DNA of 64,000 bases from contig CALDUT010000005.1 in the NCBI GenBank assembly GCA_937924775.1, positions 1 to 64,000 of the forward strand, in the 5' to 3' direction. A model generated the notes under the pieces. The model did not search any database and was not told the DNA's origin. It worked only from the letters and a program-made list of their open reading frames with translations. The stretch comes from an uncultured Gemmata sp. (GTDB taxonomy: Bacteria; Planctomycetota; Planctomycetia; Gemmatales; Gemmataceae). Of the stretch, positions 1,986-14,307 are shown piece after piece; position 1 is the stretch's first letter, and each line of letters opens with the position of its first letter. The position numbers and the translations under genes are program-made.

Positions 1986-3656
1986 TCATATGCAAGGCAG
2001 CGCATGCTGGAGGGACTTCAACTCCTCTCGCAAATCGCTATAGTCCTGGTACCGATCGGTGGGGGATTTGGCCATCATGGTTTGAATGATTGTGGATAAC
2101 TCGTGCGGGGCATCCGGCACCAGCTCATGCAAAATCGGCGGCGGCTGTTGAAGATGTTTGAAGACGACCTCCGCTGTGGAGCGACCTAGGAACGGGAGTC
2201 GACCAGCGATGAGATGGAATATTGTTGCACCCAGGGAGTAAATATCGGCCCGGTGATCGCCGATACCGCCGTTCAACACTTCGGGGGCTATGTAGCCAAC
2301 CGTTCCGGCGATCGGCCCCGATGTGCGATCGGAGGCATTAGCATTCAATGCGGGCTGATGGAGCGTGGCCAGTCCAAGATCAACCAGCTTACAAGTACCA
2401 TCACGACTTACCAAGATATTTCCCGGCTTAACGTCCCGGTGAATAATTCCCATCTTGTAGGCGGCCTCGAGCCCCGCGATTACATCCAAGACAATTTGCA
2501 AAGCCCGCGGCGACGCCACCCGTCCACTCTGTTTAATTAAATCTGCAGCCGTCAAACCATCGACAAATTCCATCACTACATAAGGTCGAGTCGGATGATC
2601 CTCAAAGTCGAGAACACGGACAATATTGGGATGGGACAATTGGGCCAGTAATTGAGCTTCTTGGGCGAGACGTTCCAAGGAAGCGGGTGAAACTTCCCCA
2701 GAATCGGTACGGAGGAATTTGACAGCCACAAGTGTCTTGAGCTTAGTATGTAAGGCGCGGTAAACTACACCCGCTCCCCCTTTGCCCACCATCTCCAGTA
2801 AGAGATATTTATCGATCTGAGAGCCGGGTTGAAATGGCGTGGCGGGAGCAGGGGGGGCTGGCACTTCGGCGCGAGACGCGGGTATCGGCGGAGCCGAGTT
2901 TCGGGTTTCTGATCCGGTTGTTGGTACCACCGAAGCACCAAAGAGATTTTGCGTCGGGGTGGTGCTCGGTGGGACCGAGCGCGTGTTGGATGGCATGCCT
3001 GGGGATGGCCCGGAGGTTGGGGGGAATGGCTGTGGTAGCTGAGGCGGAGGTGTCGAGGTGCCGAGCAGTCGCGAGTCGAGTGTGGTGCGATGAAGGAACT
3101 GTGTTGTACCGCTGAGATTGGGTCGGATGGACACACCACTGGCCGTAAAACTCGGTCGTTGACAGAGATTAGAATGTGTGGAATCGCTGTTGGATTCACG
3201 CAAACGTTTGACTTCCTGCTCTAAGCTACGTGATTGCTCCAGCATGGTTCGCGTGATAATTTTCCCCTTGGGAATGAGAATTACACCCGTGATGGGGTGA
3301 AGAATATTCTCAGGGGCGCGGGTGCCCAGTAGAGATAGCAGGTCGTCGGCCTTCTCGATGTACATGCCTTCAGGCACAACCACTTCAACCCCATCCCCAT
3401 AAACCGCCGTTTGACAGGCCAATCGGCTGTCGGGTCCGGAGTCCGCTACCAGTGCCAAAGTTCGGCGTTCTTTGGGCGAGATAGGAGATAACTGATCCAT
3501 CCCGCAGCGGATGCGAACATGACAAGTGGAGCAAATACCTTTACCGCCACACGACATCAAGATCTTCAAGTCTTTTGCCAGCAGTGCAGACAGTAGAGGT
3601 GCGCCAGTAGTCACCAAAGCCGATTCGCCGATCGGCTGAATCGTTAGCTTTTTCAT
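1986..3656 (-). CDS. [2Fe-2S] ferredoxin fused to Ser/Thr protein kinase
   Basis: This 556-residue protein starts at ATG 3656 behind a GAGGTG ribosome site. An in-frame TTG at 3686 is less likely. Residues 1-95 are a plant-type [2Fe-2S] ferredoxin with Cys36, Cys42, Cys45 and Cys81 (SCGGKGICSTCHV, RLACQ). Residues about 108-155 repeat a C-terminal extension also found on the free ferredoxin of this cluster (HPITGVILIPKGKIITRT). A Pro/Ser/Thr-rich linker of about 100 residues follows. Residues about 274-545 are a Hanks-type kinase with GKGGAGVVY, the VAVK lysine, HRDVKPGN, DLG in place of DFG, and a GYIAPE activation segment. A redox centre joined to a kinase suggests phosphorylation governed by electron supply, which is inference. 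The last codons form one arm of a 22-base inverted repeat. Confidence 0.9.
   Translation of the reverse strand: MKKLTIQPIGESALVTTGAPLLSALLAKDLKILMSCGGKGICSTCHVRIRCGMDQLSPISPKERRTLALVADSGPDSRLACQTAVYGDGVEVVVPEGMYIEKADDLLSLLGTRAPENILHPITGVILIPKGKIITRTMLEQSRSLEQEVKRLRESNSDSTHSNLCQRPSFTASGVSIRPNLSGTTQFLHRTTLDSRLLGTSTPPPQLPQPFPPTSGPSPGMPSNTRSVPPSTTPTQNLFGASVVPTTGSETRNSAPPIPASRAEVPAPPAPATPFQPGSQIDKYLLLEMVGKGGAGVVYRALHTKLKTLVAVKFLRTDSGEVSPASLERLAQEAQLLAQLSHPNIVRVLDFEDHPTRPYVVMEFVDGLTAADLIKQSGRVASPRALQIVLDVIAGLEAAYKMGIIHRDVKPGNILVSRDGTCKLVDLGLATLHQPALNANASDRTSGPIAGTVGYIAPEVLNGGIGDHRADIYSLGATIFHLIAGRLPFLGRSTAEVVFKHLQQPPPILHELVPDAPHELSTIIQTMMAKSPTDRYQDYSDLREELKSLQHALPCI
2005..2026 (-). repeat. 22-base inverted repeat, right copy (kinase 3' end)
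   Basis: This is the exact reverse complement of 812-833. It encodes the C-terminal ELKSLQH of the ferredoxin-kinase. Kinases of this type normally end with a helix of this kind, so this is probably the original copy. Confidence 0.85.
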
Positions 3657-3682: not shown

Positions 3683-4318
3683 TCAAACACTGATCGATCT
3701 TTCTTGAGCTATCTCTTGAGGTAGTGTGCTGATATCTCGATAGAGGCTGTGGAGGTTTTCGAATGTGATCACTGCTGCTGCGACGATGGAATTAGGATTT
3801 TGCAAACGAGTTGCCAAGTTCGACAGAGCCAAACCCACGGCCCGCCATGTCTGGGCCGGGTCGGGGCCGTTGTCCAGGTGATAATCAAGGCCCACCCCCA
3901 TTTGGAGTGGCAAATCCAAGGCTTTCGCCAATGGGGCCGCGAGAAATCGCGATCCCTGCCGGGAGCCTTCCAAGACATAACCAGCTCCGGCCCACGCCAT
4001 GGGTTCCTGGAGAGCATCGATTTGGGAAATCCATTCCTCAACCCAACCGGGTCGGTCGTTCAGTTCAACCCCCAAGCACTCGAGGTCCCGAGCTAATGCC
4101 GCAGCGCGGCTTGGGCACTGTGGCCAGAGGGTTCGCAACGCGGGGCAAGCATTCAAAATCCTCTCATACGACTGATGGATATGAAGAAGGGCTTGCAACA
4201 GCACGGTGTATTCCCGCCGGGAGATTTGTCCGGTGAGCATTCTGCGACTGAAAGGCAACTTCTCGATCCGCCGATGAATGTCAGCCGTCGCTTCACGCAA
4301 TCGATTCAGAATTTCCAT
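3683..4318 (-). CDS. Heme oxygenase (biliverdin-forming, HemeO superfamily)
   Basis: This 211-residue protein has the start typical of bacterial heme oxygenases, LREATADIHRRIE, where His15 fits the proximal heme ligand. It also has a YVLEGSRQGS segment (residues 114-123) resembling the distal-helix glycine motif of BphO-type enzymes. The predicted reaction is oxidative opening of heme to biliverdin, Fe2+ and CO, using ferredoxin or another electron donor. The start overlaps the end of the upstream globin gene by 13 bases, so the two are translationally coupled. The ferredoxin of the same cluster is the obvious candidate donor, by inference. Length is normal for the family. No phytochrome gene is nearby, unlike many bphO loci. 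Confidence 0.85.
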   Translation of the reverse strand: MEILNRLREATADIHRRIEKLPFSRRMLTGQISRREYTVLLQALLHIHQSYERILNACPALRTLWPQCPSRAAALARDLECLGVELNDRPGWVEEWISQIDALQEPMAWAGAGYVLEGSRQGSRFLAAPLAKALDLPLQMGVGLDYHLDNGPDPAQTWRAVGLALSNLATRLQNPNSIVAAAVITFENLHSLYRDISTLPQEIAQERSISV

Positions 4319-4845
4319 GATTCGGCTCCATGCGACGACGAGACCGGGACTCGCTCACCGACTTCGTCGCGAGCAGGCACAGGAATACGGGTGAGATAAT
4401 CGGCCACATGCTCGGCATGCGGACGCATGAGCGCAAAACTCTCTTCCGACAAAGCGGCCTTCATCTCATCGAGCCAAAAGCCGTAACTGTCCTTGAGCAA
4501 CTGGGGCGTGAGATGGACCGCCTTCATGATCGTGCGGAACCATTCCGTGAACATTTCATCCAAGGTTTCATGCTCTCCCAGGAACATGGCATTGGCCGTG
4601 AGGTTGGTGATCATTCCCAAATCTCGTTGGGTTTTCTCATACCCATTTTGATGGAAGCGAGCCATTTGGGGATACATGGTGCGGATCCGCGCCACTGTGC
4701 GCTCGACGATTTTGCCCACATTTCGACGCACTTCTTCAAGGGCGGCCCGCCGTGCTTTGACCGTTGACAGGTAACTTTCGATCTCAGCACGTTCTTGAGG
4801 CGTCAAGTATGGTGCCTTCGATTGCAGGATGATTTTGCAGATCAT
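4306..4845 (-). CDS. Phycobiliprotein-like globin, subunit 1
   Basis: This 179-residue, all-helical protein aligns by eye to phycobiliproteins (phycobilisome family). KTQRDLGMITN matches the ACLRDxxxxLR stretch, and NAMFLGEHETLDE matches YALLAGDASVLDD, followed by the helix VHLTPQLLKDSYGFWLDEMK. The cysteine that binds the bilin covalently (Cys82/84 of phycocyanin) is Thr72 here. The neighbouring Arg74 and Asp75, which contact propionate and pyrrole nitrogens in real phycobiliproteins, are kept. Its place between a second such protein and a heme oxygenase fits what I recall as bilin biosynthesis-associated globins (BBAGs). Binding of a noncovalent bilin or heme is inference. The ribosome site GGAGGT precedes ATG 4845. 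Confidence 0.75.
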   Translation of the reverse strand: MICKIILQSKAPYLTPQERAEIESYLSTVKARRAALEEVRRNVGKIVERTVARIRTMYPQMARFHQNGYEKTQRDLGMITNLTANAMFLGEHETLDEMFTEWFRTIMKAVHLTPQLLKDSYGFWLDEMKAALSEESFALMRPHAEHVADYLTRIPVPARDEVGERVPVSSSHGAESWKF

Positions 4846-4869
4846 GATGATAGACCTCCACGATCAGTT

Positions 4870-5352
4870 TCAGACGGTCAGTGTTTTGGGACTTCGGGTG
4901 AGAGCATCGAGAAGCTCTTCATAAGCCGGCTCCAACGTTTCCCAGGCTGAACGCGGAAGGGAGCTTTGAAGGATCTCGCGGAGGCTGAGGTAAGCGTCAC
5001 GAATTTCTTGCAAGTCGATGTTGGCTGCGGTGGCCACGTCGAGGACATGATCAATCCAACGGTAACGCAGCAATCGCAGATCATCCGCCAGAACTGCGCG
5101 ATTGACACAGCGAAGGCTCTCGACAATGTCTTGGATGAAGCGTCGCGAGTAGAGACTCCGATCGGGATAGCGCTTGGACAATTCGGTCTGCAGTGACTTC
5201 ACGAGGGTCGGTTCCAAACGCTCCAGCTCTTCGCTCAACTTCAAGCGAGCCGGCATGGAGGCGTAATAGGTCATGATCCGCGTGAGATCCGCCTCATTGA
5301 AAAGAGCTTCGTTAGTCGTGCGAATGATGTCGGTCAGCCAGGTATTCATCAT
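4870..5352 (-). CDS. Phycobiliprotein-like globin, subunit 2
   Basis: This 160-residue helical protein is a second phycobiliprotein-like globin. RRFIQDIVESLRCVNRAVLA aligns without gaps to the phycocyanin beta segment around Cys82, ACLRDxEIILRYVTYALLAGD. The attachment cysteine is replaced by Phe72, Arg84 by Gln74, and the conserved Asp is kept as Asp75. A cysteine (Cys82 here) sits ten residues later on the same helix. The gene starts inside the stop of the upstream V4R gene (4-base overlap) and is followed 24 bases later by subunit 1. The pair may form an alpha/beta-like heterodimer, by analogy only. GAGGAG precedes the double ATG. Confidence 0.7.
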   Translation of the reverse strand: MMNTWLTDIIRTTNEALFNEADLTRIMTYYASMPARLKLSEELERLEPTLVKSLQTELSKRYPDRSLYSRRFIQDIVESLRCVNRAVLADDLRLLRYRWIDHVLDVATAANIDLQEIRDAYLSLREILQSSLPRSAWETLEPAYEELLDALTRSPKTLTV

Positions 5353-6098
5353 GGGGACATCTCCTCGGACTGAGCTTGCGCACCGACAAGATTCTCGGTT
5401 TCAGTATTTGAAGTTTCTGCTATGGAGCCGTTGGAGAGACTGTTGTGTTGGGCCAGGTGGCGAAGAATCGCCTTATGGCTTGGCATTTGCGAAGCTTCGT
5501 TGATCCATTCCTCCAGCTCGGCTACGACAGAACCGGGACCAATCAAGAAACGACTCCGATCAGCCCCCAGGCTTGGACATTCGGTCTGCACGGCATCCAA
5601 CGGCTTTCCGGTCAGATGCGCCAGCACAGCCCCTAGCATCCCGGCCATGAGGAGGTCTGAGGTTCGGTCCGACTCCCGGATCAACGCGGGAAGCAGTGGA
5701 TTTCGGACCTCCGCGAGAACAAACTCTGCATGCTCCAGAACCGTCGCAAAACTCAGATGGCCATAGCCATGAGCTCGAAAAGCCTCAGCCAAGCATGTCC
5801 GAATGATTGGTTCGGGTAACTCCTTGAAGGGGGTCTGATAAAACGATGACAGTTCTCGTTCCAGACGCTTGGCGAATTGCGTCCCCCAGCGTCGGCCAGT
5901 GGATTTCATAATTTGCCGGTAGCTTCCGCCACACTCATAGATGAGGGCATCCCGGAACCCGATCAAAAACTCGCTCGGCAAAGTGATAATCCGGCACCCG
6001 GTTGGGGTTTTGGTGACACCTTTGGTGACGTCAGTGCGGAAGAATTCGGGATCCGCAAAAAAGTTCCCCTTAAAACGGAGGGGGGCTTGAGAGGCCAT
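5349..6098 (-). CDS. V4R-domain protein 1
   Basis: This 249-residue protein is read as a V4R (4-vinyl reductase-like) domain protein. It shows FLIGFRDALIYECGGSYRQI, then RRWGTQFAKRLE, FRAHGYGHL and HAEFVLAEVRNPLL. It closes the domain with ECPSLGADRSRFLIG, the usual CxxxGxxxCxF end in which the second cysteine is Ser. The V4R family is named after a bacteriochlorophyll 4-vinyl reductase candidate, and members are thought to bind small hydrophobic ligands. The last 50 residues are a Ser/Asn/Glu-rich tail. It overlaps the downstream globin gene by 4 bases. A role in bilin binding or conversion is plausible from context but unproven. An AGGAG site precedes ATG 6098. Confidence 0.65.
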   Translation of the reverse strand: MASQAPLRFKGNFFADPEFFRTDVTKGVTKTPTGCRIITLPSEFLIGFRDALIYECGGSYRQIMKSTGRRWGTQFAKRLERELSSFYQTPFKELPEPIIRTCLAEAFRAHGYGHLSFATVLEHAEFVLAEVRNPLLPALIRESDRTSDLLMAGMLGAVLAHLTGKPLDAVQTECPSLGADRSRFLIGPGSVVAELEEWINEASQMPSHKAILRHLAQHNSLSNGSIAETSNTETENLVGAQAQSEEMSP

Positions 6099-6117: not shown

Positions 6118-6921
6118 TTACAAATGTGATAATTTTTTCATAATGTCCCGGGCTGTGGCACCTTCCGACCGCCAGAAAGCTGCCGCATTCACTCGCTCGT
6201 AATCCGACACCACGAATCGGCAGTGATCATCACCCGTGGCATAGCATTGCATCTCGACGCTACCCAAACTGCGTCGTGCCAAAACACTGAAGACTGCGGC
6301 GAAGAGACCGGCATAGAAGTAACAAACCACTGCACCGATGTCGCCGATCGATTGAGCAACCGCGGATTCATACAATTCGATATACAACAGACCTTTGTCG
6401 CGTTGCCGGAAATCATACCGCCATGTGCCCCATCCCTGAATCGTCAACGGCCACCACCATTGCTCCATAAGAAAATCGACTCGCATCCGATCCAGTTCCG
6501 CTTCGAATTCTGCGCGCATTCGCGGCAAGAAACATTTCATATCCTGCATGCCCCACTGGAAGCCGCACTTATACATAATCTCACGGGCCGCATTTTGCCC
6601 GACTTGATCCTCCAGGGAACCTAGCACCGCCACAAGAAAGTCCTCGGTGACACGCATGATGCGCTGTCCATAAGGATTGGTGAGCATGCCCCGGTCGAAG
6701 TCATGGTGGTAAAATTCGCGGTCGTGATAATGGTTATGGAGGTGAGGTTGTACCCCCAGTTTTGGAATGATCTGTTTGTGGATCGTTCCGTCTGATAGGC
6801 CCGGCCGCTTAAGAAGATTCATCGCTCGGGTATCACCTTTTTCTTCCCAAACCAATTGCAAGGTTTGTTCGGAGGGACGATCCAGCGGCGCTGTGAAATC
6901 TTCTTGCAATTTGGCAATCAT
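6118..6921 (-). CDS. V4R-domain protein 2 with His-rich N-terminus
   Basis: This 267-residue protein has a clear V4R domain in its C-terminal half. It shows YKCGFQWGMQDMK, then VELYESxxA-like IELYESAVAQSIG, a FAAVFSVLARRSLG helix, and MQCYATGDDHCRFVV with both domain cysteines present. Before the domain lies a striking histidine cluster, residues 60-73, with His60, 62, 64, 66, 72 and 73 (PHLHNHYHDREFYHHDF). That cluster could bind a metal, heme or linear tetrapyrrole. The gene lies between the ferredoxin and V4R protein 1 with short gaps (26 and 19 bases), so all are probably on one transcript. Function is unknown, and ligand binding is inference from the family. Confidence 0.7.
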   Translation of the reverse strand: MIAKLQEDFTAPLDRPSEQTLQLVWEEKGDTRAMNLLKRPGLSDGTIHKQIIPKLGVQPHLHNHYHDREFYHHDFDRGMLTNPYGQRIMRVTEDFLVAVLGSLEDQVGQNAAREIMYKCGFQWGMQDMKCFLPRMRAEFEAELDRMRVDFLMEQWWWPLTIQGWGTWRYDFRQRDKGLLYIELYESAVAQSIGDIGAVVCYFYAGLFAAVFSVLARRSLGSVEMQCYATGDDHCRFVVSDYERVNAAAFWRSEGATARDIMKKLSHL

Positions 6922-6947: not shown

Positions 6948-7421
6948 TTACTCTTGCGATTCTCGGAGACTGCGGAGTTCGTTCACAGCGGCAGCGAATT
7001 CCGTGAATATGGTCCGCGTGATCAGCTTACCCTTCGGGATCAAGAGCCGACCGGTGATAGGATGCAGATAGTCGAAAGCGGCTTTGGTACCGATTTTGCC
7101 TTCGATGTCCTCATAACTTTGGACGTAGAAACCAATGGGAATCTCGATGACGGCTCCATTGCGTTCAACGTGAGCCTGACAGGCCAACCGACTGTCCGCA
7201 TCAGCGGTCGCAATCATCCCCAAGGTCCGCTCTTCTCGAGGAGTCCGGGGAGTCAGACAATCGGCCCCTTGGCGAACGTGAACATGGCAAGTCGCGCACA
7301 GACCTTTGCCACCACATGCCATATCCAGTCGCAAGTCGCGGGCCAAAAGACCACGAATGACTGTGGAACCCGTCGTAACATCCAGATCGCCACCAATCGG
7401 AACGAGGGTCAGAGTCTTCAC
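6948..7421 (-). CDS. [2Fe-2S] ferredoxin with C-terminal extension
   Basis: This 157-residue protein starts at GTG 7421 behind GAGGAG. Residues 1-95 form a plant-type [2Fe-2S] ferredoxin with Cys36, Cys42, Cys45 and Cys81, exactly the spacing in the ferredoxin-kinase of the same cluster. Residues about 108-150 form an extra segment (DYLHPITGRLLIPKGKLITR) shared with that fusion, so the two ferredoxins are paralogues. Its likely job is electron delivery to the heme oxygenase or to the V4R proteins, because cyanobacterial-type heme oxygenases use ferredoxin. That partner assignment is inference. It follows the histidine kinase-like gene by 17 bases. Confidence 0.9.
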   Translation of the reverse strand: MKTLTLVPIGGDLDVTTGSTVIRGLLARDLRLDMACGGKGLCATCHVHVRQGADCLTPRTPREERTLGMIATADADSRLACQAHVERNGAVIEIPIGFYVQSYEDIEGKIGTKAAFDYLHPITGRLLIPKGKLITRTIFTEFAAAVNELRSLRESQE

Positions 7422-7438: not shown

Positions 7439-9142
7439 TCAGGCTGCACCCAGTTTCCAACCAATCACTAACTCTTCGATCGGAGTCAGATCAGCATGGT
7501 CGGATGTGAGTCTGGGTATAGCATGCTTCGTGATTCGAGCTGCTAATCGAACGCGAATGAAGAGCTTACCGCTGGGTGAGGTCGCGAAGTCGATGTGGCC
7601 CCCCATCTTCTCCGCAAGCTGCCGGGCCAGGATTAAGCCTGGAATAAAACCACGGGAGTTGGATTTGAGGAAGCTCGGCAAATCCGAACCTCCGAATGGA
7701 CAAGCTAACTGGTCGATCTCGTCCGGACTGAGAGCCGGGCCGGCATCATAGATCTTGAATTCCAATTGTTCCGCATTTCCACTCTCGCTCGCAGCCAAGC
7801 GGTTGAGGTGGATGCCGATTACACCTTGTTCCGTGGCTTCCGTGGAGTGAAGGAGAATGCCTAGGAACAGAGTTTTGATCCACTCCTCGTCGGCATAGAT
7901 CCATCCCCCCTGATCGGTGATGTTGACTGTCAGGTTTCGGGCTTTCAATTTGGCGGACATTTGATCAATTGCAGCACGAATGGGCTCCACTGCCAACAAT
8001 TCCGATTCCATGGGCTCGGGAAGTTGACCAGCCAGCGCTTGATTGAGCCAGCGGAGGCTCCGGAGATAGGCTTCTAAGTGGCTGGTGGATTGACGGATCG
8101 CGGTGATACGCGGGATCATCACGGCGCGGCCTGAAGATTGCTTGGCATCAGAAGCTAACAGTCGGGTGCAGGCCAGAATGGCATCGACCGTTTCACCGCC
8201 AGCACGGACAAAAGAATCCCAACTAGCTCGCAGCGTCAACTCTCGCGTCTGAACGCGATCTAACTCGAGTCGATGAACTTCCTCCGTCAGATCGCGGGCG
8301 ACGATGTAAACTGACTTGTCTGATGATCCGCTGAGTTGTTTGGCACACAGTGCGACACGTGTCAGTCCGTCAGGCCGTTTCAGCTCGGTGATGACCTCTT
8401 TGGCGTCGTTGTTCTGCAGCCATTGGGTAATGCCAGCGGAATCGAGGATGGGCCGTCCCCAGGGATCGGTCTCATGGGCCGGCTTGGCGATGAGCGTAGG
8501 AAGTGGTTTGCGGGCCGTTTGCGCCGAAGTTTGGCCCAATAATTTCTCGGCGGCAGTATTGAGATATCGCAGCGTTCCGTTCGTATCCACAGCCATGATG
8601 GGCGTGGGCAGTTCCTGAACGATTCGAACTACGATTGCCAGTCGCTGACGAATAACTCCTATTTTTTTGGCTGCGTCCTGGAAGGTGACGTGGATTTCCC
8701 GAACCTCGTCCACAGCCGCCCGATCACTGGGCAGATCGGGAATAGCAACTCCGTCACTGAGTTTCCCAAGGTTGGAGTGAACGTTTTCGAGGACAAGACG
8801 GCAACGATCAACCGAGTCTTTGTAGCGTTTTTCGCAATCCGCGATCGCTCGGGATATGTGACTGATCTCGTCGTTATGAGTAGTGAAAGCCTCGAAAGCC
8901 GAAACATCCGACGGACTCTGTTGGCAGGTATGGGCCAATTGAGCCAGTCGCTGAGTCAGTAATCGCGTCGTAGCCGCACAAGCTCCCGAGGAAATCACTC
9001 CAGCGATCACCAGAGGTATCAGACTCTCAGGGCTTGCTAAAACGCTAAGTGATACCAGAGCGGTCACTCCGCCGACCGCAAGCGGGATCAAGCTGGATAG
9101 CAGAAGACGGCTTTGCAGGCTCTGTGAAGCGAATGCTTTCAT
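7439..9142 (-). CDS. Degenerate membrane histidine kinase-like protein
   Basis: This 567-residue protein has two N-terminal membrane helices (about residues 12-35 and 40-60), a HAMP-like linker, and a PAS domain starting near ELPTPIMAVDTNGTLRYLN. The C-terminal half resembles a HATPase. The expected H-box is missing its histidine (the region reads RASWDSFVRAGGETVDAIL). The N-box is eroded (LFLGILLHSTEAT), the G1 box reads DAGPALS, and the G2 box is GFIPGLILARQLAEKMGG. It therefore looks like a pseudo-kinase that may sense or scaffold rather than autophosphorylate. No response regulator lies nearby. A GAGG site precedes ATG 9142. Confidence 0.75.
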   Translation of the reverse strand: MKAFASQSLQSRLLLSSLIPLAVGGVTALVSLSVLASPESLIPLVIAGVISSGACAATTRLLTQRLAQLAHTCQQSPSDVSAFEAFTTHNDEISHISRAIADCEKRYKDSVDRCRLVLENVHSNLGKLSDGVAIPDLPSDRAAVDEVREIHVTFQDAAKKIGVIRQRLAIVVRIVQELPTPIMAVDTNGTLRYLNTAAEKLLGQTSAQTARKPLPTLIAKPAHETDPWGRPILDSAGITQWLQNNDAKEVITELKRPDGLTRVALCAKQLSGSSDKSVYIVARDLTEEVHRLELDRVQTRELTLRASWDSFVRAGGETVDAILACTRLLASDAKQSSGRAVMIPRITAIRQSTSHLEAYLRSLRWLNQALAGQLPEPMESELLAVEPIRAAIDQMSAKLKARNLTVNITDQGGWIYADEEWIKTLFLGILLHSTEATEQGVIGIHLNRLAASESGNAEQLEFKIYDAGPALSPDEIDQLACPFGGSDLPSFLKSNSRGFIPGLILARQLAEKMGGHIDFATSPSGKLFIRVRLAARITKHAIPRLTSDHADLTPIEELVIGWKLGAA

Positions 9143-9325: not shown

Positions 9326-10459
9326 CTATCGTTGGGGTTTCGCGAACTGTCTGAGATCATTCAAAATTTCGTCATAACTGTCCGGTCGCAGATGAGGCTC
9401 TTTGGCCACCATCCGCAAGATGAGACCTGACATCGCGGCGGGAGCATCCGGAACAAACCAATGCGGGGGATCCAAGTGCAATTTCAGGTGTTCCTCAAGG
9501 CAGAGCGAACGCGATGCGCCTAAGACAGGTTGTACACCTGTTAGCATCTGGTACATCGTGAGCCCCAAGGAGTAGATGTCAGAGCGATAGTCGCCAGCAC
9601 CATGGAAACATTCGGGAGCCAAGTAAGGCCAACTTCCAAAAACGTGGTCGGGCAGCAAATGACTCGCTTTGAGGGGCCGTGCGACACCAAAGTCCGCGAT
9701 GACCACGCGCCGTTCGCGTGTTAACAACAGATTGCTGGGTTTAATGTCACCATGGATGAATCCCGCGCGATAGGCGGCACGCAGGCCACGAACTGTGTCG
9801 CAGGTGATCGAAACAATCTGACGCCAAGGGAGCCGACCCCGCCGCTGCAGCCATCGCAAGACACTACCCCCGGGAAGGTATTGGCTGACCAGAAAAGGAC
9901 TGTCATTATTGAGGTTAGCATCCCAAAGACGTAACACGTTCGTGTGGTGAATGAGGGCCAACGTATTCGCTTCATTGCGGATTAGGTCTGGAGAAGAACC
10001 AGGATTTGCGACTTTGATGGCAACGGGACAATCCCAATCGGGATGTCGTGATCGATAAACATTTGCGTTCCGTCCACGGCGAATAATACCTTCGACACGA
10101 TAACGACCGAAAGACTCCGGTTTCGTCAACCCCGCAGGCGCATCGCACCGGGAGTCACGCTTCGCATCATCTTTGGTAGCGATATTGGCTTTGACGCGAA
10201 CTTGATCGCGCGGCAGGAGTTGTCGCAAATCTCGTGGATCGAGTTGCCCATTCAAAATGAGGAGTATCGCCCGCGCAGCAATTCGATCCACCAACCCAGC
10301 CTGAACGAGATCCTGAAGCTGGGAGACCAAACTCATAGGGCAGCTAGAATCCGAGCTCAGTAAGGCCGACAGGTTCTTCCAATCAATTTGGCCTGATGTA
10401 CGCAAGTCTCGATAGATCTCAACGTGAGGCATCCGAACGGCTTTTACGACACTTCCCAT
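9326..10459 (-). CDS. Ser/Thr protein kinase of the bilin cluster
   Basis: The protein is 377 residues from ATG 10459, which has GGGAG at good spacing. An in-frame GTG at 10471 is also possible. Residues about 1-110 are an unassigned N-terminal region with repeated Leu-rich helices. Residues about 115-370 are a Hanks-type kinase with a weakened glycine loop (IIRRGRNANVYRS), VAIKVA lysine, HGDIKPSNLL in which the Arg of HRD is Gly, ADFGVA, and YLAPE. No membrane segment is seen. It is the first gene of the cluster, separated by 183 bases from the histidine kinase-like gene. With the ferredoxin-kinase it gives the locus two Ser/Thr kinases, one at each end. Confidence 0.85.
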   Translation of the reverse strand: MGSVVKAVRMPHVEIYRDLRTSGQIDWKNLSALLSSDSSCPMSLVSQLQDLVQAGLVDRIAARAILLILNGQLDPRDLRQLLPRDQVRVKANIATKDDAKRDSRCDAPAGLTKPESFGRYRVEGIIRRGRNANVYRSRHPDWDCPVAIKVANPGSSPDLIRNEANTLALIHHTNVLRLWDANLNNDSPFLVSQYLPGGSVLRWLQRRGRLPWRQIVSITCDTVRGLRAAYRAGFIHGDIKPSNLLLTRERRVVIADFGVARPLKASHLLPDHVFGSWPYLAPECFHGAGDYRSDIYSLGLTMYQMLTGVQPVLGASRSLCLEEHLKLHLDPPHWFVPDAPAAMSGLILRMVAKEPHLRPDSYDEILNDLRQFAKPQR

Positions 10460-11240
10460 CTTAACTCCCACACATTGTGCACTTCATGGCATGCGTTGAT
10501 TTTTTCGACAATTCCGTCCAGGAACGTGTCTATAGCCGAGCAGAATTAACATCGCCCCACTTCTCATCTAGGACAGGTTGATGAGTGTAGCAAGGAAAAT
10601 ACTGTATGTGGTTGGTTATTTTGCTGTCTTCTATTTCACGATCTATCGAAAATTCTTTCCCGATAAAAATGCCAGACCTTCCTGAATCTGTGAGCATCAT
10701 CGATAAACAAAAGTTGGCAAGCGGCTCTCATTCGATGAGGAGAGTAAATAGCTGACGTTTGTTCTAAAAAACGTGAGATAATACATGTCCTCTCGTTGTC
10801 GGTGAAATTTTCTGCTCGTTGGGAATTTTTTCAGTCCGGAGTCTCTTCAGAAAACTCTTCAGAGGATATCTAGAAGTTGCCTCTCTTCGGGATCCGCCGC
10901 CTATCTGATGATTCCTCCTCACATCCTTCTCTACTTCACACCATGTGCATGAAGGATCAGAGTAATCCCGATATACGAACATCACATCGGAATTTTTCCC
11001 GTTCTATCGGTCGATGGGGGTTACTGTCGAAATGTGCTTCTTTGGATCGAGTGTGACGAAAGAATTACTCTCAATCGCTGCCTCTGTGTTTGGCTGACAG
11101 AGGGTCGTCATGGAGAACATGCTAGAACTTTGGGAGCAATGCTCCTCGGTGAGATTACCGAGAAACCATCACCGAGGAAGTGATTTGTCGTGTGATCATT
11201 CGATGATTGGCTCTGATCCCCAAGCCAACACAGGACAAAA
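10460..11240. other. AT-rich stretch without a recognisable gene
   Basis: Short reading frames here (73 residues at 10764-10985 minus, 78 at 11110-11346 plus) have no family-like features and no convincing ribosome sites. Part of the stretch is clearly AT-rich for this genome. The line at 10621-10680 holds only 22 G or C of 60. It must contain the promoter of the minus-strand cluster, but I could not define -35/-10 boxes. A small RNA gene is possible but nothing specific supports it. Confidence 0.5.
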
Positions 11241-11986: not shown

Positions 11987-13034
11987 TTAGTGCGGCCACC
12001 GGTAGCGGATCTTGTTTTCGCCGATGTCGATGACTTCGAGAGACACGCGTTGGCCGGGTTGAGGCGGGGCCGGGGGAGAACCTTCGATCGGGCCCGAAAG
12101 CTCTTTTCCACCACGCAATTGAATCTTGGCCCGCCACGGTTTGTACTTCTTAGAAGCTTCCAACACGGTGGCTTCGATCCATGAACCGACCGACGGTAAA
12201 CCCAACGCCGACGCCGAGAAGGGTTTGCAACGCTTGGTCGCATCGGTTTCTTTCATCCGGCCGTAGCCACTGGAAGTTTTTCCTCCAAGGCCCCCAGTCC
12301 GCGAGAGCGATGAGTAGGAGTTCGCACGCCAATTCTGTCCAAGCGACGGATTTTTCGTAATCTCCTGGTCCATGCCACGAAATCGCGACGCGGAACGCAC
12401 CGACCACCGAGAGAAACGGTACCGGGATTGGGCTATCGAAATCAGTCGGTGGGATGGTTCCTTCCAGCCACATGTGGGTGGTGGGGGCACATCACGTCGA
12501 GTTGGAGCGGTTCCGATTCGCTCTCGGGAACAAACCAACCGTCGTGGAAGATCAGGCAACCGCTGTCCTTGGTCGTGCCAAAGAGCAACTGGTGATAGTC
12601 GCTGCCTTTGCGAAACTGCTCCACAGTTTCACTCCAGACACGGTGGCAGTAATGAGCCGCAAGTCCCTTCAGGGCCGAGCCGGGCAGAACGGGCAGGTCG
12701 TAGGTAAGATGCAGTGTGATCCCGGTTTCCAGCACATTTTCTGACCCCAATCCGACGATGAGGCGGCTGGTCGTTGTGACGGTCGCCGCCGCCGTCAATT
12801 CCGGGAGCAAGGTTTGCCAACGATCGTAAGCGGCTTTGTAGAGTTTCGCGGCATCGGGTTGTTTTACAGCGTGGATGGCGGCCTGTAGAAGAGCCTGCCG
12901 CTGTTCCGGATCACCTTGAGCCGCCGTGGCCGGTTGGTGTAAGTAGCGTTGTAGCAGCAACCCGGGGTGGCTATCGCGTTGCCCGCGATTGGTCATCACA
13001 CAATCGAGAGCTTTTCGGGCTGCGGATTGCTCAT
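11987..13034 (-). pseudogene. cmr6: Broken type III-B effector gene cmr6
   Basis: Cmr6 is a Cas7-like RAMP subunit of the Cmr complex. The reading frame is split. The N-terminal part (HPGLLLQRYL, then RLIVGLGSENVLETGITLH and GSALKGLAAHYC) runs to 12442. The middle (PPTDFDSPIPVPFLSVVGAF) is in another frame from about 12473, and the glycine motif GGKTSSGYGRMK plus a roughly 65-residue C-terminal tail is in a third frame from about 12290. The second shift is explained by one extra G in a G run (GACTGGGGGCCTT would read DWGLGGKTS with four G). An ATG at 13034 overlaps the cmr5 stop but leads into stops after 12 codons, so a third indel near the start is likely, or the start is ATG 12996. As it stands it cannot make a full protein. 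Confidence 0.88.
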
Positions 13035-13414
13035 GTTTCGTCCTCTGCCGCGTTGTCCTTCTCATTAAAAGCTTCAGCATACCGTTTGATCCAGCTAGCG
13101 GCCAAAAGCGCGTTCCGGCTCAGCCGCAAGTAGCTGCTGAGGGCTTCAGAGCGGGATCAATCGGCCAAATCCTCAGCCGTGGTCGCACCACAGCACCGGG
13201 CCTCGTGGAGAACCGTGGTCAGATCGGTGAGATAGTCGTCTTCCTTCTTGGCTTGAGCGAAAGCGATCGCTTGGGCCAAGCCGCAGGTGTGGATGAGTGC
13301 GGGAAACTTCTTGGCAAATGTCGTGTACTGTTCGAAGTTACAACGGCTGTCGTCCTTGCGGGCTTTCACCGCGGGAAACGCTGCATGGGCCAAGCGTTGG
13401 CTGAGTGTTTCCAT
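13031..13414 (-). pseudogene. cmr5: cmr5 with in-frame stop
   Basis: Cmr5 is the small helical subunit of the III-B complex. The first 85 residues (METLSQRLAHAAFPAV, CGLAQAIAFAQAKK) end at a TGA at 13159-13157. The same frame then continues for about 41 more codons with the expected C-terminus (SSYLRLSRNALLAASWIKRY) to a TGA at 13033-13031. A CGA to TGA change is a simple explanation. The start overlaps the cmr4 stop as TAATG, and the stop overlaps the cmr6 ATG, the coupling expected in an intact ancestor. Confidence 0.88.
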
Positions 13415-14307
13415 TATTGTACCTCCGGGAAAGCACAGCGAACTTGTCCGCGACCGACGGTCGCTTGGCCCCCAATTTGTAACATCAAAGGATCTTTGGC
13501 GAAGTGATCGAGCAAGCCATGGGGGGTGATGTCGTCACCATTTTTTCCAAAGACACGGTCGCATTGGATCAACACCATCAGGATGGTCTCCGCCGGGAGC
13601 GATTCTTTGGTCCAGTGAGCATTTTTGGCCACGGTTTTGGTGTTGTCGTCGATGCGTACCCGCGTGTGGACTTCCGTACCGGTTTCACACAGGTAATCGA
13701 AGGCAAGGTCCGGCAGAACAACGAAGCGTTTCTGGAATTCGGACTTCCACGGGTCATTGGGACCAAAGACCCACTGGCCGATTCATTCAGCCCAGTGCTT
13801 GGCGTCGGGGTTGTCCGTACCGGCAAAGTCCAAGTCTTCGAGGAAGACTTTACCGTTTTCGATCAGCACGTTCCCTGTGACGTAACATTGCCCATCCATG
13901 GCGATGGCTGGGACCGGGGGCAATTCGGTGATTCCGGCCAATGTCAGGGTTCGCCGCAGCATCTGGAGGCATAAGGGCGAGGTGGTCCAGGCGAAGGTTC
14001 CGCGAAAGCTGCGGACCGGAAGGCAAACGAGTCGAGCATCGGTCGGCATGAGGGCCCCGGAATTGGCCTCGTTGTCGGCAGTTCCCGTCAGACCAAAGGC
14101 CGTTTTCAGGAGAGGGTCGTTCTTGCGATTCTCTACGGTGGCGCGGAAATGATCCGCCCAAACACCTTTGAAACTGGAGCCACGGATGATTGGCCAGTTC
14201 GTCACCGCGTCGCGGTCGATGGGCAAGTCGATGTAGCCGACGCCGCGGCCGATGCCCGCGTGCGTGGGGCTGAGACAGTGTAGCCAATAAAGCCGAGTCT
14301 TGGGCAT
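13414..14307 (-). pseudogene. cmr4: cmr4 with in-frame stop
   Basis: Cmr4 is the backbone Cas7-like subunit that cleaves target RNA. The N-terminal 174 residues show YWLHCLSPTHAGIGRGVGYI, the ligand-facing DLPIDRDAVTNWPIIRGSSFKG, and LVCLPVRSFRGTFAWTTSP. A TGA at 13785-13783 interrupts the gene. In the same frame it continues IGQWVFGP, ...VHTRVRIDDNTKTVAKN, WTKESLPAETI and LMLQIGGQATVGRGQVRCAF, ending at the normal position. Only this one lesion was found, so the gene is otherwise well preserved. This points to recent inactivation. Confidence 0.9.

Follow-up and report, generated by a model that had tools for sequence, protein, structure and literature searches.

The window analysed here, a stretch of 64,000 nucleotides from an uncultured Gemmata sp. 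(genome G000), carries an operon of nine genes which all run in the same direction on the minus strand, from position 10471 to 1986 (Table 1). The genes are arranged in the order STPK2, sensor-like histidine kinase, free ferredoxin, V4Ra, V4Rb, BBAG2, BBAG1, heme oxygenase and ferredoxin-kinase fusion. The first gap measures 183 bp, the following ones are at most 26 bp wide throughout, and two pairs of genes overlap. The fusion gene is the last of the operon and lies 26 bp behind the heme oxygenase gene. As a gene neighbourhood, the link to heme oxygenase claimed in a first-pass annotation of this DNA was confirmed, the adjoining gene matching PF01126.

Table 1 Features of the bilin operon in the window
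Feature	Position	Strand	Basis
Ferredoxin-kinase fusion, 556 aa	1986..3656	-	Open frame and Pfam
Ferredoxin domain with conserved C-terminal extension (HPI.G.ILIPKGKIITR), residues 1-140	3237..3656	-	Pfam, alignments
P/S/T-rich linker, residues 141-275	2832..3236	-	Alignment of nine fusions; AF2 pLDDT <50 over 159-258
Hanks-type Ser/Thr kinase domain, residues 276-556 and stop, family K1	1986..2831	-	Pfam, trees, AF2
Heme oxygenase	3683..4318	-	PF01126, E 2.5e-12
BBAG1, phycobiliprotein-like globin	4306..4845	-	PF00502
BBAG2, phycobiliprotein-like globin	4870..5352	-	PF00502
V4R protein V4Rb	5349..6098	-	Pfam 24.5 bits, under cut-off 31; homology and position
V4R protein V4Ra	6118..6921	-	PF02830, 56.3 bits
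Free [2Fe-2S] ferredoxin, same family as fused domain	6948..7421	-	Pfam, alignments, tree
PAS and HATPase sensor protein, histidine-kinase-like, without conserved H-box His	7439..9142	-	Pfam, alignment
STPK2, second Ser/Thr kinase of the operon, family K1	9326..10471	-	Pfam, trees

The operon is located between a CRISPR-like array (17-790; 11 copies with a common 36-nt core, spacing 70-75 bp) and type III-B-like genes (12442-14307), two of the RAMP superfamily and one Cmr5. For the sensor-like protein, an alignment of 12 homologues contained no position with an invariant histidine, and by eye the N-box asparagine seems to be replaced by histidine or phenylalanine. Judged by these residues, the protein is perhaps a pseudo-kinase sensor.

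The reading frame of the fusion is open throughout from the ATG at 3656 to the stop at 1986, with GAGGTG just 5' of the ATG. Pfam detected Fer2 at residues 5-85 (E 4.2e-08, 33.5 bits, cut-off 21) and Pkinase PF00069 at residues 286-536 (E 4.9e-48, 164.2 bits, cut-off 31.7). The ferredoxin cysteines Cys36, Cys42, Cys45 and Cys81 show the spacing C-x5-C-x2-C-x35-C, by which the domain is assigned to the ISC/adrenodoxin-like [2Fe-2S] type. By sequence, ferredoxin 1i7h and putidaredoxins are among the best relatives with a solved structure; none of the 21 PDB sequences matching this part bears a kinase name. For the kinase part, PknB was nearest by sequence among the solved structures listed (60/291). 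The Hanks-type hallmarks (Lys, HRD, DxG, APE and the distal Arg) are present, with DLG replacing DFG. The C-terminal half thus has the residues of a complete Hanks kinase core and is a putative protein kinase. That one polypeptide contains both a complete [2Fe-2S] site and a complete kinase core, as the first-pass annotation had stated, was borne out. AF2 modelled the kinase mostly with pLDDT above 90. The ferredoxin block reached pLDDT 26-65 and is unreliable in this model, because the underlying alignment held just proteins of the window and kinases of the contig collection.

The occurrence of the fusion was examined in 95 genomes of the same family, with the cluster ferredoxin called at E <= 1e-25. 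This ferredoxin was present in 17 genomes. Eight of the 17 contain the intact fusion, in nine copies and six genera: G000 itself, G009, G014, G078, G019 (twice), G027, G062 and G069. The same domain pair therefore exists in further genomes. Free ferredoxin copies only were found in eight of the 17. The nine-gene order of the window recurs in G009, G014 and G078, and also in G017 with split genes. In G019, one fusion closes a shorter cluster. The second is paired with a sensor-like gene only (L103:7394-10612 for the pair); it lies away from the bilin cluster, and no heme oxygenase was detected in the retrieved stretch around it.

In principle, two genes could have been joined by misassembly or by the loss of a stop codon. 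Such an artefact is seemingly hinted at by G017 (L099:7040-9497), where the two halves of the protein are encoded in different reading frames that overlap, and where the heme oxygenase gene is split likewise; by sequence, this copy appears to consist of disrupted genes or sequence errors. However, the fusion is intact nine times in eight genomes and six genera, including two copies within the single-contig genome G019. A joining artefact is consequently extremely improbable, and no frameshift explains the fusion.

Outside the family, every ferredoxin copy found was free (planctomycetes, Myxococcota, Acidobacteriota and Acaryochloris). Free copies were detected at two loci of other planctomycetes (G049, G179), in five of 329 Myxococcota genomes (the phylum of L019, Kofleriaceae) and in three of 347 Acidobacteriota genomes (the phylum of L018, Granulicella). 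The ferredoxin frames of these two phyla comprise 131-202 aa, one of them at a contig end. Acaryochloris has four copies over two plasmids: in Acaryochloris marina MBIC10699 (L183, L184), two plasmids typed as conjugative carry the BBAG clusters, and near each cluster lies a second ferredoxin copy. A scan of the contig collection with the whole protein gave 35 loci, all of them matches to the linker or kinase and none in the ferredoxin part; several of these loci supplied background kinases. Viral contigs scanned with the ferredoxin alignment contained no relative.

For the clusters proposed to be ancestral to phycobiliproteins, we know of no established function in non-photosynthetic bacteria. 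A BBAG cluster is described as heme oxygenase, an Fe-S protein, two V4R proteins, one or two bilin-binding globins and a ferredoxin-dependent bilin reductase (FDBR), and the cyanobacterial clusters are inferred to descend from such pre-type clusters (Rockwell, Martin and Lagarias 2023, PMC10151467). The window resembles the pre-1 and pre-3 clusters described there in its heme oxygenase, Fe-S protein, two V4R proteins and two globins. In contrast to them, it adds two kinases, the sensor-like protein and a second ferredoxin, and its cluster has no FDBR. The bilin reductase family PF05996 had no match in the whole genome of the window, and it was present in nine of the 19 cluster-bearing genomes searched. 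Among the fusion genomes, G027, G062 and G069 contain FDBR and the other five do not. Hence, the fusion is not tied to this enzyme. The CXRD cysteine is kept in some BBAGs only (PMC10151467). An alignment read by eye showed no such cysteine at that place in either globin of the window (4306-5352), so bilin binding by these globins, if any, would not proceed via this link. In photocobilins a bilin-binding globin is joined to a B12 domain; these proteins are reported to bind biliverdin independently of a cysteine link and to regulate enzymes by protein contacts (PMC10979010). Thus, the globins of the window are still possible sensors.

The first-pass annotation regarded the free ferredoxin of the operon as a close paralogue of the fused domain. 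Both have the same four cysteines, but these were found in all 45 aligned cluster ferredoxins and do not single out this pair. The identity between the two is 48%, compared with 53-71% between the fused domain and the fused domains of other genomes. With free ferredoxins from clusters of other layout it amounts to 45-62%, and to at least 55% for seven of ten. In the ferredoxin trees, calculated without outgroup rows, six fused domains and that of G017 form one clade (98/91; 98/93 in the second tree), which excludes the free paralogues encoded in the same clusters. The kinship thus holds for the family and the cysteines, whereas the closeness does not. The fused domains of G027 and G062, and that of G069, branch apart from the main fused clade. 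The tree requires two changes for the fusion; a single fused clade was not rejected (p-AU 0.459), and a single origin of the fusion would be compatible with it.

A C-terminal extension is common to the fused domain and the free cluster ferredoxins of four phyla. With two of the four Acaryochloris copies, the fused domain shares 51-52% identity over 140-146 aa. As this identity reaches through the extension, the fused domain is placed by sequence in the Fd5-type family of BBAG-cluster Fe-S proteins. The cyanobacterial members are described as derived from pre-PcyA-associated ones (Rockwell et al. 2023, PMC10151467). All 45 aligned cluster ferredoxins have serine or threonine at positions 44, 57 and 135, and 44 of them have it at position 137.

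The whole fusion protein as query gave 63 matches in its own genome, nearly all of them kinases. By a rough Poisson estimate, a Ser/Thr kinase is met by chance in about 6% of 5-kb and about 11-12% of 10-kb stretches of this kinase-rich genome. Adjacency alone was therefore not accepted as evidence, and trees were used. For them, 36 own-genome matches were chosen; six long-branch rows among these 36, as well as L034 (a stop) and the short partial matches of L211, L208 and L212, were then omitted. A clade of 27 rows, termed K1 (98/88; L112_13163 omitted from the count), comprises STPK2, the fused kinases and the separate kinases located within or next to related clusters. The separate K1 gene of related clusters lies upstream of heme oxygenase. 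The own-genome kinase L150 is a near relative of K1; the remaining sampled own-genome kinases fall elsewhere.

These results bear on the idea that the fusion serves mainly to carry electrons to heme oxygenase and that its kinase is a co-expressed passenger with unrelated targets. The position of the gene 26 bp behind heme oxygenase would suit this idea, as would the lack of a bilin reductase match in the genome, since no such enzyme was found there to use the ferredoxin. But the same operon already encodes a free ferredoxin, and the fused kinase is a member of a family associated with these clusters and distinct from nearly all sampled kinases of its own genome. Furthermore, the second fusion of G019 lies beside a sensor-like gene, away from the cluster, and without heme oxygenase in the retrieved stretch. 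We consider a role mainly as electron carrier unlikely.

A second family of cluster kinases, K2, occurs mostly beside V4Rb in Planctomycetota, Myxococcota and Acidobacteriota (L208-L217, L095, L102, L104-L110). At seven of the ten Myxococcota and Acidobacteriota loci (L208-L217), the kinase domain starts 24-174 bp past the V4Rb frame. It starts about 0.8 kb from V4Rb in L209 and lies about 1.4 kb away, split over two frames, in L208; in L211 the kinase adjoins the ferredoxin rather than V4Rb. Eight of nine planctomycete K2 genes follow V4Rb. The K2 gene of L105 (G026) occurs with cluster ferredoxin, heme oxygenase and a K1 gene, and neither V4R nor BBAG was found there. No K2 was found beside V4Rb in L112 or in the cluster of the window, whose kinases belong to K1. 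No kinase was found near the two Acaryochloris clusters, and the retrieved stretches of the three Acidobacteriota loci contained no heme oxygenase.

Eighteen K2 kinases formed one clade among 88 kinases (99/99), a tree from which L213_3733, L215 and L098_2761 were also omitted; L213_3733, a second kinase gene, does not group with K2. The same 18 formed one clade (100/100) among 64 kinases, where the 46 non-K2 rows were 20 Myxococcota kinases from outside the clusters, chosen among the best K2-profile matches, 10 own-genome, 12 background and four K1 kinases. With the K2 profile at 1e-62, and with no more than 28 first-look candidates per genome scored, at least nine places were detected in seven of the 95 family genomes, and none among the candidates of the other 88. 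Seven of the nine had been in the profile; the other two are G069:C188, in a cluster, and G035:C684, a contig where the match lies beside PF00502 matches. In Myxococcota, at 1e-52 and with six to eight first-look candidates scored per genome, at least 311 of 329 genomes gave a match. Among the matches listed, only the four members that had been used in the profile stood out (264-329 bits). The cluster member G772:C58, on which the profile had not been trained, scored 217 bits and lies within the Myxococcota background (up to 222 bits), as do the best matches of G828 and G726 (about 1e-59). Thus, in this phylum K2 is separated by trees and not by the profile.

For the function of the fusion, we favour, at about an even chance, the reading that it represents, in a single chain, the partnership between ferredoxin and kinase of bilin (BBAG) clusters. 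Observed are the domain architecture and its conservation, together with gene order and family relationships. In this partnership the fused ferredoxin would keep its usual partners, heme oxygenase, V4R proteins and globins, and would bring the kinase to the cluster proteins on a flexible tether. The kinase may then phosphorylate the tethered ferredoxin, neighbouring cluster proteins or both, comparable to the reported need for SpkG in the phosphorylation of Fd5 in Synechocystis. Phosphorylation could tune the electron supply to heme breakdown, or report the state of the bilin-globin complex. The redox state may bias the tethered kinase, but switching by redox would not be required. Against this reading speak the eight family genomes that have free ferredoxin copies only and the two Acaryochloris clusters, near which no kinase was found.

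In all nine fusions the ferredoxin part has 140 aa. The linker varies between 79 and 168 aa, is poorly conserved and consists of P, S, T, G and A to 45-67%. This combination indicates two modules on a tether. The main rival is a redox-gated kinase, switched by the oxidation state or the presence of the [2Fe-2S] cluster, which would sense the flow of electrons, oxygen or the iron status in the surroundings of heme oxygenase. For such a gate speaks that the four cysteines are unchanged in nine of nine fusions, together with the precedents of PknG, where a rubredoxin-like domain affects kinase activity (PMC8546545), and of a Fer2-nucleotide cyclase (L192). The kinase residues K313, E333, H406-R407-D408, K410, N413, D426, G428, E459, D471 and R535 are equally invariant. 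On the other hand, a linker with two-fold variation in length and poor conservation is unlike a fixed gate, and the alignment revealed no change special to the fused ferredoxin copies in comparison with the free ones. By its sequence, the variable linker would suit tethering at least as well as gating. Redox gating is possible, but we consider it rather unlikely, and the tethered partnership is retained as the preferred reading.

A kinase joined to the cluster's own ferredoxin in one bacterial family, and frequent, little-noticed kinase companions of BBAG clusters, suggest that these clusters be viewed as signalling systems. The wider finding, a cluster-associated kinase family across three phyla, is the one likeliest to surprise specialists. 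A more general proposal is that BBAG clusters are sensory systems for light, heme or redox with kinase output, that a dedicated kinase (K2 or ferredoxin-fused K1) belongs to their ancestral core in at least three phyla, and that in some planctomycetes the Fe-S protein is the gate of the kinase. As a whole, this proposal is speculative and probably does not hold. If true, bilin-globin or heme oxygenase electron flow would be read out directly as Ser/Thr phosphorylation. Genes adjoining the Synechocystis cluster were set aside for want of conservation evidence, and in the main text of that paper the word kinase occurs once, within a reference (PMC10151467). The clade of cluster kinases in three phyla and the fusion in one family supply such evidence.

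Among the matches listed from open-licence papers, neither a ferredoxin-kinase fusion, nor a kinase of a BBAG cluster, nor the K2 family was found. The main text of a survey of planctomycete kinases contains no match to Fer2, 2Fe-2S or iron-sulfur (PMC11032199). Another planctomycete genome encodes Fer2 fused to a nucleotide cyclase (L192:1429-2409). Like the fusion of the window, it joins a ferredoxin domain to a signalling output, so this combination recurs; unlike it, the output is a cyclase and the protein matches the cluster-ferredoxin profile at 1-88 of 154, without the extension. To our knowledge, no other kinase with an iron-site domain comes closer as a precedent than PknG. The actinobacterial protein likewise combines an iron-site domain of the electron-carrier type with a Ser/Thr kinase in one chain (PMC8546545). 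Catalysis by PknG is lowered by a rubredoxin-like domain adjacent to the kinase core, and disturbance of the metal site is reported to alter activity (PMC8546545). In contrast to PknG with rubredoxin and TPRs, the fusion has a [2Fe-2S] domain and no rubredoxin or TPR match in Pfam, and it is not of the PknG type.

The closest known system is found in Synechocystis. There, spkG (slr0152) is the last gene of slr0144-slr0152, and phosphorylation of Fd5 (slr0148) was reported to be lost in the spkG mutant (PMC11863333; PMC10651672); the catalytic activity of SpkG itself is described as biochemically unverified (PMC11863333). Fd5 is a [2Fe-2S] ferredoxin closer to bacterial than to plant types (PMC7363133). 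The first-pass interpretation, which rightly recognised the fusion and its heme oxygenase neighbourhood, had overlooked this pair as well as the bilin/BBAG cluster and its frequent kinase companions. Its claim of a new type of signalling protein is too strong, given a pair already reported in trans and the iron-site precedent of PknG. Since K1 and K2 are different kinase families, SpkG is regarded as an analogue in role, with orthology to either family only putative. In both organisms one operon encodes the ferredoxin of a BBAG cluster together with a Ser/Thr kinase, as two separate proteins in Synechocystis and as one chain in the window. With Fd5 phosphorylation lost in the absence of SpkG and an Fd5-type domain in the fusion, the latter resembles Fd5 and SpkG merged into a single polypeptide. 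This genuine and conserved fusion is a variant of a partnership already known.
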